NCBI GenBank assembly: GCA_038363925.1
Contig: JAQQWL010000016.1
Location: forward strand, 1,426,001-1,490,000
Reading direction: 5' to 3'
DNA from: Apiospora phragmitis
Lineage: Eukaryota; Ascomycota; Sordariomycetes; Amphisphaeriales; Apiosporaceae
DNA length: 64,000 nt
The position numbers were made by a program, and so were the translations under genes. The notes beneath the pieces are model-generated. The model searched no databases. It was not told the DNA's origin and worked only from the letters and a program-made list of their open reading frames with translations. Shown here one piece after another: positions 39,927 through 52,931 of the stretch. Position 1 is the first letter of the stretch, and each line of letters starts with the position of its first letter.

Positions 39927-40611
39927 ATGACAAGGATTCACTGGGTTCAAGTGAAGGATTTGGGAAGTACGGGTGAATCAGGTGATTGGATGCCTAGATT
40001 TCTTCCAAGATTGAAACGGGAGTGAAAGGTTACATCATGTATCGAGATCCAAATATACCTTGAGTGGAATATAAGGGGAAACAGATGTCTCGCGCCCGGA
40101 GACCCGTCTCGTCTGTCAGCGCGTATACTCTGTCATCACGTACGTCCAGTCAGAGTGTCTGACCGCATCGTGATATGGGAAGTTCTTGGCCGAGCAGGCC
40201 ATCGGCATATAGCTTCAGGCCATCTTCCGTTCACTTCTGGTCCACCAGCGAATGCTCGTGGCGAAGTGTAGCCGAGTACCTCTGAAATGTTACAATCGCG
40301 AGATTGTAGTTATTGTTACCTAAGTGGTTATATATGTCTGAAGATGAACGTAGGTATCGATTCTCGGCGTAAATATACTCTTCAAGGAATAAACTGTGTG
40401 TCCCAAGAGGGAACCCACGTAACTCTAGAGCAATCCGTGCATTCAGTCCTCCCAAGACACTGGAATAAGGAGTAATAAATACTGAAATAATATGGAGTAC
40501 ATACTGGAACGGGAATGAATAAACCCCGAAAGTCGCTTACCTATCAAATTTGATAGGACAAACGATACGACGCACTAGAAATCTGCTTTCTGATATATAA
40601 ACTCTGTGGTT
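39927..40611. other. Convergent intergenic region
   Basis: Lies between the 3' ends of the BBE-like oxidase (+) and the TauD-type dioxygenase (-). Only an AT-rich stretch (about 40280-40480) is seen. Confidence 0.4.
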
Positions 40612-43085: not shown

Positions 43086-45095
43086 ATGGACACATTTCAG
43101 GATGACAAGGTCAAGTCGGCCGGGGTCGGCACAGCTGTGGACGCTTCAGACACAGAAATATCTATCGGGCAATCTGGTCCCACCCGTACCGAGAACATCT
43201 TCACGCAGGTGAAGAGGAGAGTCCAGATTGAGCCGCAATATGGCAGCTTTGCCCCTGGAAGATGGAGTAACGCAGGTAAGTAGTGACTTGAAGATAGGGG
43301 GCGATGGCTTGGCTGACCTCCGTAGATCTGGATCCAACTCCGTTTGAAGAGCAAACATGGAGTAGCCTGAACTGTATGTATATCTCCAGGAGACGTTGAA
43401 TCTTGCCCTGTAGCGGCTGACAGGATTCAGATATCTTCTACTGGTTCAACGATGCAATCACCCTGGAAACCTCAGGCTTGGCTCATCTCTCTATAGCATG
43501 GGCCTCTCCTGGAAGCTGTGCATTGTCATCATTACGCTCGGGCATTTCCTGATGGCGATTGGGCTTACCTTGAACGGAGTTGTCGGTTCCCGATTCCACA
43601 TCCCCTTCACGATACAGAGCAGGGCGTCCTTTGGGATGTTCTTCTCCTTCGTCATAGTGTTAATACGGATGGTCGTTGCTGCCTTCTGGTACGGAATCAA
43701 CACTTACACGGGCGCCCAGTGCGTCAACGTGATCCTCCTCGCGCTATGGCCCCAGTTCGCCCAGTTCGCCCAGGTGCCCAACCGTCTCCCGGCCTCGGCC
43801 AACATTACGACGCAGATGATGACGGCCTACATTGTCTACTTCCTGTTCGTCCTGCCGTTCCACTGGATCCACCCGCGGAAGCTCCGGTGGTTCTTCACCA
43901 TCAAGTCCATTGTCTGCTTGCCGGCGATCTTCGGCATGCTGATCTGGGCGTGCGTGGCCACCGGCGGTGCGGGGACGGGAAACCCCATGTTCCGCCGTGG
44001 CAACACGCTCTCGGGCAGCGAGCTCGGCTGGGCCTTCATGAGCGGCCTGAACGCCATGATGGGCAACTACGGTACCCTCGCGGTCAACATCAACGACTTC
44101 ACGCGCTACGCCCGCAGCAGCCGGCGGACCTACGTGCAGCTCTTCGTGATCCCGGCCTCGTTCATGCTGATGGCCTTCGTCGGGCTCGTCATCGTGGGCT
44201 CGGCCGAGCGCGTCTACGGCGAGTTGCAGTGGGACGTGCTCAGCATCATGACGCGGTGGAACGGCAGCGGCGCGGCGCGGGCCGGCACCGTCCTGGCCGC
44301 GGGGTCCATGGCCATGGCGCAGGTCGGCACCAACCTGGGCGCCAACTGCGTCTCGGCGGCCAACGACCTCAACGCCCTGTTCCCGCGCTACATCGACCTG
44401 CGCCGGGGCTCCTACATCGTCGCCGTCGTCGGCGCGTGGGTCCTGACGCCCTGGAACATCCTCGCGTCCGCCGACGCGCTGCTAAAATTCATGGACGGCT
44501 ACGCCATCTGGCTGGCCCCTATCACGGGTATACTTCTCGCTGATTTCTATGTCGTCCATCGCCAGCATTACGAGGTACGCGAGCTGTACGACCTCCACGG
44601 CCGGTAAGCTGTCCCAGTGTTTATTCCTCCTTATTCGAGTGGTTATTCCTCGTTATCCCATTATCTCAAAGGGGATAGATCCAACTTTTATTCGAAGAGT
44701 CGCCTTTATTACCTCCTGGGACATCCCATTTATCCCAACAAGAGTAATACTAACGCCGAGAGTCTATAGGTACCGCTTCAATCGCATCGGAACGAACTGG
44801 CAGGCGGCCGTCTCCTGGGCGATAGGGTGGTTGCCGTTACTTCCCGGCCTGATAGCAGTAGTAAGTCAAACTATTCCACCATTAAGTGCTTGCAACATGG
44901 GTGTCGCGGGATTCGGAATATCAGCAACTAACACTTTCAAGACTACCCCAACCGCCGTGGTCAACGCGGGCATTCGAAATATATATTTCTCTCGGCTACA
45001 TGTACGGAATGTGTTCGAGTTCTCTTATGTATGTCATCCTATATATCTTGTTCCCCATTCGTACCAGAACGGCCTATGCCGCAGGTACCGTATAG
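43086..45095 (+). CDS. NCS1 nucleobase/vitamin permease
   Basis: Exons start 43086-43275, 43326-43373 and 43431-44603, then resume at 44770 after a 166-nt intron unlike the others (separate entry). A last intron starts at about 44860. The soluble N-terminus is followed by about 12 helices. Landmarks are GLSWKLCIVIITLGHFLMAI, the NCS1 signature HIPFTIQSRASFGMFFS, AAFWYGINTYTGAQCVNVIL, GNYGTLAVNINDFTRYARSS and LGANCVSAANDLNALFPRYI. The family imports purines, pyrimidines, allantoin or thiamine with H+ or Na+ at the plasma membrane. Frame breaks by single bases occur near 43477 and twice near 44990, probably errors. The divergent neighbour is a xanthine-dioxygenase-like enzyme, so a purine role is plausible. 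Confidence 0.82.
44604..44769 (+). repeat. Introner-like intron, copy A (in the NCS1 gene)
   Basis: A 166-nt intron, GTAAGC to CTATAG, two to three times longer than the other introns here. Over its whole length it matches the 168-nt intron at 51346-51513 in an unrelated gene. The 3' end holds a perfect 18-nt shared block (ATACTAACGCCGAGAGTC, 44747-44764) including a consensus TACTAAC branch site. The middle shares TCTCA-A/G-AGGGGAT. It is removed between HGR and YRFNRIGTNWQ of the permease. Confidence 0.8.
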
Positions 45096-50847: not shown

Positions 50848-52931
50848 ATGCATTCCCTTCAGTTTCCTGGCTTCGAGTTGGTACCCCGTATCATAGTTGC
50901 ATCACCCACACCGTCCTTTCTGGAGATCGTTGCAGCTTCCGTCGTCTATGGTCTCCATGACAAGACTACCCCTATTCCGATCCTCCGCTTTCAGAAGCCA
51001 GACAAGGTGCACCAAGCAACTGAGTGGCTGTGCGAAGTCATCGACGACGAGAATTTCACGGTTATCCACGAGATTGTTCCACGAAAGCTAGATGGCCCTG
51101 ATGGTCTTGACTCATTGATTGTGGCAAGCCGGGAAGGAACCACCAACTTGGCATTCGACAAGAACAGCGGAGTGTGGAATAGGAAGCTAGTCGGAGTTGG
51201 AGAGCCGAAGGAAACTTGGCAGACACCCAACTCCGAAACACCTGGCTCAGGCGACCATTGGGGTTCGGGAGCTACCGATATCGGCAGGGTAGGCAATGAC
51301 CCGTATGCCTACATCGCAACTATGGATCCATTTCATGGTACTACGGTAAGCGAATTTCAGGGTCTATTCCTTCCTATCCCAGTCGTTACTCCTTGTTGTC
51401 CCAGTGTCTCAGAGGGGATGGATTCACCGTTTATTAGAGTTGCCTTGATCCCCTCCTGAAACTTCTCGTTTATTCCAAAAAGAGTGATGGATACTAACGC
51501 CGAGAGTCGGTAGGTGGCGGTTTACACAAAAGTAAGCCATACGCTCACTGATGACATCCAGTGGAAGCGGCATTGCCTTGACGTTTTCGGGTGAGCACCC
51601 CCTTCTTGCTTTTCCCCCATGTCCGGCTACGAGGTTGGAAGAGAAAACAAGGCAAGAGATGTGAAAGGCTGGCAAAACACTAGTAGCCTGGCATGTGAAA
51701 CGCTGCTACAATAATAACCGTTAATCTCAACAGAACCCCGAATCAGCTCCTGAAGAACGGCGACGACCCGGGCCCACTTCCTCGTCTGTGCCGATTTCGA
51801 CGGCGATGGGGATGACGAGTTCGTCGTTTCCATGCTTGGGCCAGCAGATCGAGACCAAGACGGAAAATCGAGACCACCACTGCCAGGGCCGCATCCGCTC
51901 AAGGGTATCATGTATTACAAGGCCATTGACCTTGATGCAGGTATATTTGCGAAATGGAAAGTAGCTGAAGAATCATCCGCACGTATTGCGCTCGGGTTAG
52001 TGGTTCTCCAATAGCTCCTTTCCCGAGCTCCGCGTGACAGGTAGACAGACGCTGACGCTGAATGGGATAGGGACTTCTCCGGCAAGTGCAAAATGGACAT
52101 GGTGTCGATGAGCTACAACGTCAAGAATTACTACGAGGAACCGGAGCCTGTGGTTACACTCCACCTCAGAAACTCGGCTCTACCACCAGCTGCGGACAAC
52201 CTAGCCATCACCCCCACCCTCGGGTAGAACGAGGCTATGGTTTACCTCAGGAAGCCTTCGTCTGTTAAGGAGGCCTCCATCGCTAAACTCATCGAGATTG
52301 CAGACTACGCGATCAGCATCGAGGTCTATCCGTCGAAAGAGGTCCCTGTCCGCGGGAGAGTGCGGGCGCGTGAAGGTGCCCATCGGGAGGGGCGACGGCT
52401 TGAAGGTGCTCTTCGGGTCTTTGTTGTTCCCGAAGGAAGAAGGCGGCAACGATGAGAAACGACAGCCTTTCTCCGTCCCCGGGTTCACTGTGGCCACCAC
52501 GACCACGGACGCCAAGAACGACATTGTAGATGAGACGTTGGGCGCCCTCTGTCAACTGCGGCGTGCACAACCACGCCTAGGACACCTTCTGCGAGGTCCA
52601 CGTGTGCCTGTCCCCCCCGGCAGCAGTAATGGGGGGATGGCGCGGCTAAAGCAGGGAGTACGCCGACTCCAACCTGCCCCATGAGTACAACAAGTTGCCC
52701 AAGGAGGCGTTCGACTGGCTTCCGATGCAACAGCTTGAGGAGCATGGAGGCATGTGGCAAAGAGATCCTGATGGAAGACCAACGAGAACGAGCAGGAAGG
52801 TCGACACGGTACGGTATCCCTGGCATAAATGGGAAGCCGGCGACGAGAAAGGGAACGTCGATGTTTGGATGGTAATTGAATTTGACCCGCGGGTCGTCGA
52901 TCAGGCGGTGGAGAACGGTCAGCAGACTTAG
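50848..52931 (+). pseudogene. Aldos-2-ulose / 1,5-anhydro-D-fructose dehydratase (AUDH), with nonsense codons
   Basis: It matches the AUDH family known from Phanerochaete: propeller repeats (GSGATDIGRVGNDPYAYIAT, FHGTTVAVYTK), a metal-binding loop ADFDGDGDDEFVVSMLG, and a cupin end with VHNHA, DTFCEVHVCLS, EEHGGMWQRDPDGRP and RYPWHKWEAG. AUDH dehydrates 1,5-anhydrofructose, the glucan lyase product, towards microthecin-type pyranones. Introns: 51346-51513 (introner-like), about 51590-51735, and about 51994-52069. Defects: TAG at about 52227 before NEAMVYLRKPS, TAG at about 52576 within HNHA-stop-DTFC, and several homopolymer shifts. The N-terminal 150 residues of the basidiomycete enzyme are missing, yet a TATA box supports this start. 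It is probably inactive. Confidence 0.78.
51346..51513 (+). repeat. Introner-like intron, copy B (in the AUDH gene)
   Basis: A 168-nt intron, GTAAGC to CGGTAG, homologous end to end with copy A at 44604-44769. It carries the same 18-nt 3' block (51491-51508) and about 70% estimated identity overall. It is spliced out between FHGTT and VAVYTK, and the flanking exons are not related to those around copy A. Confidence 0.8.

Follow-up and report, generated by a model that had tools for sequence, protein, structure and literature searches.

The long introns of an NCS1 permease gene and of an aldos-2-ulose dehydratase (AUDH) gene, here called copies A and B, are very probably members of one family of introners (introner-like elements) in Apiospora phragmitis (Sordariomycetes, Xylariomycetidae, Amphisphaeriales, Apiosporaceae). 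This identification is based on the occurrence of further copies throughout the genome, on homology that ends at the splice sites, and on the restoration of conserved protein sequence by the predicted excision in the genes checked. The multiplication of these introns as units is well supported. A fuller description, namely an introner family inserted seamlessly at G|GT with the carrier left open, is held with good confidence, and movement of the family through RNA is regarded as an evenly balanced possibility.

Introns A and B

The DNA analysed, referred to here as the window, is a stretch of 64,000 nucleotides. Its relevant features are summarized in Table 1. The intron boundaries proposed in the sequence-only reading of the window proved correct, with GT and AG at the positions given in the table. 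The two introns are homologous from donor to acceptor, as had been claimed: a global alignment contains 130 identities in 162 aligned columns, with 10 gap positions, and scores 171, whereas 1000 dinucleotide-preserving shuffles average -1.8 and do not exceed 43. The same pair was matched by blastn within the window at 9e-28. The homology is confined to the intron and stops 2 nt into the exons (CG before the donor, GT after the acceptor). Both copies start with GTAAGC. The identical 18-nt stretch said to close both introns, ATACTAACGCCGAGAGTC, is real, but it does not form the very end, as the last five bases differ (TATAG in A, GGTAG in B).

The remaining introns of the window, given as 47-95 nt long and unrelated to each other, were checked by blastn within the window and by motif scan alone, without re-annotation. 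No further convincing copy was found in this way, but a degenerate third copy had been overlooked. A same-strand reading frame, which by eye we take to resemble a dioxygenase, ends about 70 nt before this copy starts, and because of this position the copy probably lies in a 3' UTR. A further copy, L029 (G000:C16:1490555-1490695, minus strand), is located about 550 bases past the right end of the window; four copies are therefore present within about 24 kb.

Table 1. Introner copies and associated features in the window
Feature	Position	Strand	Description
Introner copy A	44604..44769	+	166 nt, GTAAGC..TATAG, in NCS1 (cytosine/purine) permease gene; 5' arm degenerate
Copy A, branch-site motif TACTAAC	44748..44754	+	sequence, motif scan
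Copy A, near-terminal inverted repeat, 3' arm CCGAGAGTC	44756..44764	+	sequence, motif scan
Introner copy B	51346..51513	+	168 nt, GTAAGC..GGTAG, in aldos-2-ulose dehydratase (AUDH) gene
Copy B, branch-site motif TACTAAC	51492..51498	+	sequence, motif scan
Copy B, near-terminal inverted repeat, 3' arm CCGAGAGTCG	51500..51509	+	sequence, motif scan
Third, degenerate copy	40354..40540	-	187 nt; GTAAGC donor intact, TAC in place of the acceptor TAG; probably in 3' UTR
Permease reading frame upstream of copy A	43498..44603	+	homologues found
AUDH coding sequence after copy B	51514..51591	+	26 codons in spliced peptide; far end set by eye at next GT

Excision and host proteins

Excision of copy A gives HGR|YRFNR in the permease, and the proteins of A. 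marii and A. rasikravindrae read GRYRFNR; the junction is spanned by Pfam PF02133. Excision of copy B gives FHGTT|VAVYTK, and the crystallised aldos-2-ulose dehydratase (PDB chain 4a7k_A) reads FHGNTVSVYTK. In the spliced AUDH peptide the junction is at residue 60 and Pfam PF22301 extends to residue 66. In both genes the conserved protein is restored by the predicted excision, and the element is presumably removed by the spliceosome. The deposited A. phragmitis permease protein (P0002; window 44528-44826) jumps from ITG to WLPLLPG and loses approximately 40 residues around copy A that are kept by the orthologues.

Thirty spliced peptides were picked from 61 copies, mostly those with longer open frames and hence non-randomly, the other 31 remaining outside the test. 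A Pfam domain above cut-off extended across the junction in eight of the 30 (GH115, NCS1 permease, AAA_12, tannase, GH92N, MFS, AUDH and S-Me-THD); weaker or abutting Pfam matches were obtained for three and none for 19. Ten antisense junction peptides, chosen from 20, contained no Pfam domain. In an aspartic-protease-like gene, the apparent working donor of copy L070 (1956-2131) is situated 4 nt upstream of the usual first base of the element. The exons spliced via this upstream donor read DTSIWIIGSPLL and are aspartic-protease-like, with Pfam Asp below its cut-off.

Element anatomy

The majority consensus, derived from the 37 of 51 listed copies that make up alignment A1, is 167 nt long and reads GTAAGCGACTCTCGGGG ... 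TACTAACGCCGAGAGTCGGTAG. It consists of a GTAAGC donor, a TACTAAC branch site, a TAG acceptor and a 10-nt inverted repeat that extends from base 6 to a point 4 bases short of the 3' end. The 10-nt arms are thus near-terminal, and the outermost bases fall short of a perfect inverted repeat. Of the 33 copies with the TAAC of the branch site, 30 have it at a distance of 15 nt from the end. The expectation that copies would be full-length, in sense orientation within genes and bounded by GT and AG is borne out for the ends of 48 of the 66 clear-ended copies (46 of these 48 with TAG), but sense placement within a gene could be shown for a part of the family only; the other 18 clear-ended copies have no GT or no AG at the expected place.

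The commonest variant of the 5' arm, C to T at base 11, is found in 28 of 48 copies and keeps RNA pairing through G-U only. A hand-typed consensus folds at -55.6 kcal/mol (z -3.56). The fold of the alignment is nearly empty (-0.35), the base pairing in the copies equals that of shuffles, and no covariation was detected. A stable RNA structure was rejected on account of this nearly empty fold and of pair counts not above shuffles. An Rfam search of window 44550-44820 yielded one chance match far below cut-off.

Genome-wide distribution

The 52.67-Mb genome was searched with copy A, which gave 40 scored matches among 84 candidates. Three motif searches returned 61, 86 and 80 matches, with 1, 0 and 0 for the reversed-motif controls. 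Matches to copy A and to the motifs were merged into 114 clusters. A search for the 5' end with at most 1 mismatch produced 81 matches (control, 6), and the inclusion of these with a slightly wider merging gap resulted in 133 places, of which 20 are known by the 5' end only and may in some cases be due to chance. The introner reading is thus supported by many intron-bounded copies genome-wide, at 113-133 places, and neither of the outcomes named in the sequence-only reading as fatal to it, a lack of further copies or homology extending into the exons, was observed. The family is spread over 14 contigs, and the host genes with Pfam matches represent different families, so that many introns alike over their whole length are found in unrelated genes. 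The copies are clustered, with 17 of 119 neighbour gaps shorter than 10 kb against about 3 expected.

Compared in pairs, the clear-ended copies show a median identity of 79%, and the most similar pair reaches 94%. The lengths of 54 clear-ended copies range from 76 to 274 nt, mostly 162 to 193; judged by eye, an additional TTATTCC-type unit seems to be present close to the 5' end of some longer copies. A search for internally deleted high-copy versions, made with a short pattern exact at both ends, gave no matches, and the five copies below 140 nt (L062, L058, L064, L066 and L092) have different deletions by eye. A search for relatives via mis-annotated read-through proteins returned one candidate and none that scored. 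At a single place, L105 (G000:C11:1422820-1423460), three element ends are arranged head to tail, the 3' end abutting the next 5' end at two junctions; it is the only such tandem found. In total, 95 element rows (75 + 20) were examined, and the 29 without two clear ends were excluded from the flank counts. L105-L108 were read but stand outside the counts, and 21 of the 114 clusters are not included among the sequences examined.

Insertion site

The flanks of the 48 GT..AG copies show G at -1 in 38, G at +1 in 42 and T at +2 in 36, while no other flanking position has a preference comparable to G|GT. For ten ordinary introns predicted with a codon model the corresponding numbers are 4, 6 and 1 (Fisher p of 0.02, 0.058 and 0.0002, with a small control). 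The size of this control depends on the filter: a strict filter leaves 3 introns, looser filters 10 and 14. Across the 48 copies no left-right enrichment of the flanks was found on any diagonal, which would mark a target duplication of variable sequence. The short duplicated target that had been suggested at the exon ends was therefore not recovered in any variable form beyond the fixed G|GT context. The empty site is read as G|GT because of these flank preferences and because there is no sign of a variable duplicated target. The element starts with GT and has G as its last base, which makes a duplication of fixed GGT look the same in the sequence as a fixed GGT target.

The first two bases of the 5' ends are exactly GT in 35 cases and another base followed by T in 6, with 3 others at control level; this distribution indicates that there is no free target dinucleotide. 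A variable 2-bp target duplication, suggested by the same two bases on both sides of L002, L020 and L070, was rejected on the mismatches in L016, L026, L008 and L101, on a second base that is nearly always T, and on the donor 4 nt upstream in L070. A TA target of the mariner type was also rejected, as the empty site in the permease would then hold four more bases, of which the orthologous proteins show none.

Coding context and orientation

A self-trained codon model was used to detect coding sequence within 150 nt of 55 copies: 24 have coding on the sense side only, 9 antisense only, 2 mixed and 20 none, so that no purely sense coding was detected beside 31 of the 55. The direct codon junction test of 75 copies called 10 as sense and 1 as antisense, left 63 unclear, including copy B, and placed 1 at an edge, which reflects the insensitivity of the model. 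A comparison of open frames in 61 copies gave medians of 78 nt for sense and 65 nt for antisense (p = 0.087). These sequence comparisons make a bias towards sense likely without establishing it, and some of the copies may be located in UTRs or not in genes at all. No difference in identity was seen between copies that have sense coding and those that have none. Opposite the near-consensus copy L014 (1492-1657), the other strand carries a degenerate reading frame that may resemble fungal recombinase-like (DUF3435) proteins; a Pfam search of this frame gave no match.

Comparison with known intron families

Introner-like elements of Dothideomycetes have been described from Fulvia fulva, Dothistroma septosporum and Zymoseptoria tritici (PMC4457414). 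Like the A. phragmitis introns, they are spliceosomal introns whose one sequence family is spread over many unrelated genes. According to PMC8469720, the earlier papers on these elements report that insertion is seamless, that there are inverted repeats or a stable structure, and that AG/GY sites are preferred. The Dothideomycete setting given in the sequence-only reading is too narrow for the present family, which belongs to the Sordariomycetes (Amphisphaeriales). It also differs from the Dothideomycete elements in its site, G|GT with no A preference at -2 (10 of 48), and its best pair is 94% identical compared with 98-99% in active elements (PMC4457414). The distinction from the published families is drawn from their descriptions.

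The sister stwintrons and type-2 cropped sister introns of Hypoxylaceae and Xylariaceae (PMC8469720, PMC12403724) come from the same subclass, Xylariomycetidae. According to these papers, they share with the A. phragmitis family the 10-nt near-terminal inverted repeats, the position of the 3' arm between branch site and acceptor, the tolerance of G-U wobble and the absence of a target duplication. Unlike stwintrons, the A. phragmitis introns are single and canonical and have another arm sequence; they also have a strong G|GT site, whereas the stwintron papers describe random sites. The stwintron authors point to RNA (PMC12403724).

Introners of algae, protists and other eukaryotes are multi-copy introns, as in A. 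phragmitis (PMC9860276). This survey reports terminal inverted repeats for some families and splice sites co-opted from the target for some. For ascomycete families its authors state that neither inverted repeats nor target duplications are found; in the A. phragmitis family, in contrast, inverted repeats are present near the ends, and the site is a fixed G|GT without a variable duplication. A search that was confined largely to open-access papers and did not extend to the supplementary tables of the 2022 survey found no report of introners for Apiospora or, among the papers listed, for Amphisphaeriales, and for Sordariomycetes and Xylariales only the stwintron work. As far as this open-access search extends, no earlier report of the A. 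phragmitis introner family was found.

Alternative explanations and mode of movement

The likeness of A and B could in principle be due to segmental duplication, gene conversion or chance, and the clustering of copies noted above is in keeping with duplication. The probability of this explanation is nevertheless close to negligible, given that the similarity ends 2 nt into the exons, that copies occur on 14 contigs in hosts of varied Pfam families, and that shuffles score far lower; as a general account, segmental duplication is refuted by the genome search with copy A. An ordinary interspersed repeat, not an intron, with GT and AG at its ends by chance, would suit the roughly half of all contexts in which no sense coding was detected and the position of L014 opposite a degenerate frame. 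It is very improbable in view of the exact excision that restores protein and of the constant distance of TACTAAC from the acceptor. Slightly less probable still is a stwintron identity, in which the copies would be D1,2-type nested twin introns like those of Hypoxylaceae and Xylariaceae, or cropped descendants of such introns. The order of parts is the same (donor, 10-nt 5' arm, interior, branch site, 10-nt 3' arm, acceptor), the length is similar, and the -1 G is present in 38 of 48 copies. However, the -1 G must remain exonic in A and B if the protein is to be kept, and for this reason one canonical excision fits both. Moreover, -1 is other than G in 10 of 48, nested introns starting with GGT, the first G intronic, were not found, the arm sequences are unlike those printed for Xylaria, and the palindrome TTCTAGAAA is absent from A and B.

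For the introner family itself, new copies would arise by the precise insertion of whole introns between G and GT, and removal by the spliceosome would make insertion into an exon nearly harmless. The carrier might be intron RNA that, through reverse splicing or after being captured in a broken end, becomes part of transcribed DNA and is then copied into DNA, and the near-terminal 10-bp stem might hold or protect both ends. The main rival to this RNA route is a MITE-like element that inserts at GGT as DNA, the target completing both splice sites, either with a fixed 3-bp duplication or as a circle recombining at GGT. Such a DNA-transposon introner is considered unlikely, though it has several points in its favour: the 10-nt near-terminal inverted repeats, GGT in both flanks, the three element ends in tandem at one locus, and copies beside which no sense coding was detected, some of them among the nearest to the consensus (L004, L014 and L012). 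The inverted repeats, the fixed GGT site, the head-to-tail locus and the copies without detected coding thus suit a DNA element too, and counted against an RNA carrier are pairing not above shuffles and the nearly empty alignment fold. Evidence against the DNA element comes from the absence of both a variable-sequence duplication and a free target dinucleotide, from an autonomous partner not having been seen in a search that was not systematic, and from the bias of coding sides to sense (24 vs 9). Between RNA-based insertion and DNA insertion directed to GGT, the balance tips slightly towards the former because of the seamless insertion, the lack of a variable duplication, the stwintron-like arms and the arm variant that pairs through G-U only.

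Significance

How introns are gained is a long-standing question, and there are few families in which the copying is still visible. Intron families that copy into new sites represent a rare and poorly understood route of intron gain. The assembly consists of 19 contigs, and protein sequences from sister species are already publicly available. A practical cost is visible in the deposited permease model, which is without the exon sequence flanking the introner. A sharp insertion site such as G|GT is not reported in the related stwintron work; its presence here gives the RNA and DNA models different, testable predictions. It is rather doubtful that a GGT-specific reaction moves this ascomycete family as DNA, whether with a fixed 3-bp duplication or through a circle, the target itself completing both splice sites. 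If it does, the statement that ascomycete introners show no signs of DNA transposition would be overturned, and a single account would cover the site preference for G|GT, the inverted repeats, the head-to-tail locus and those copies beside which no coding was detected.
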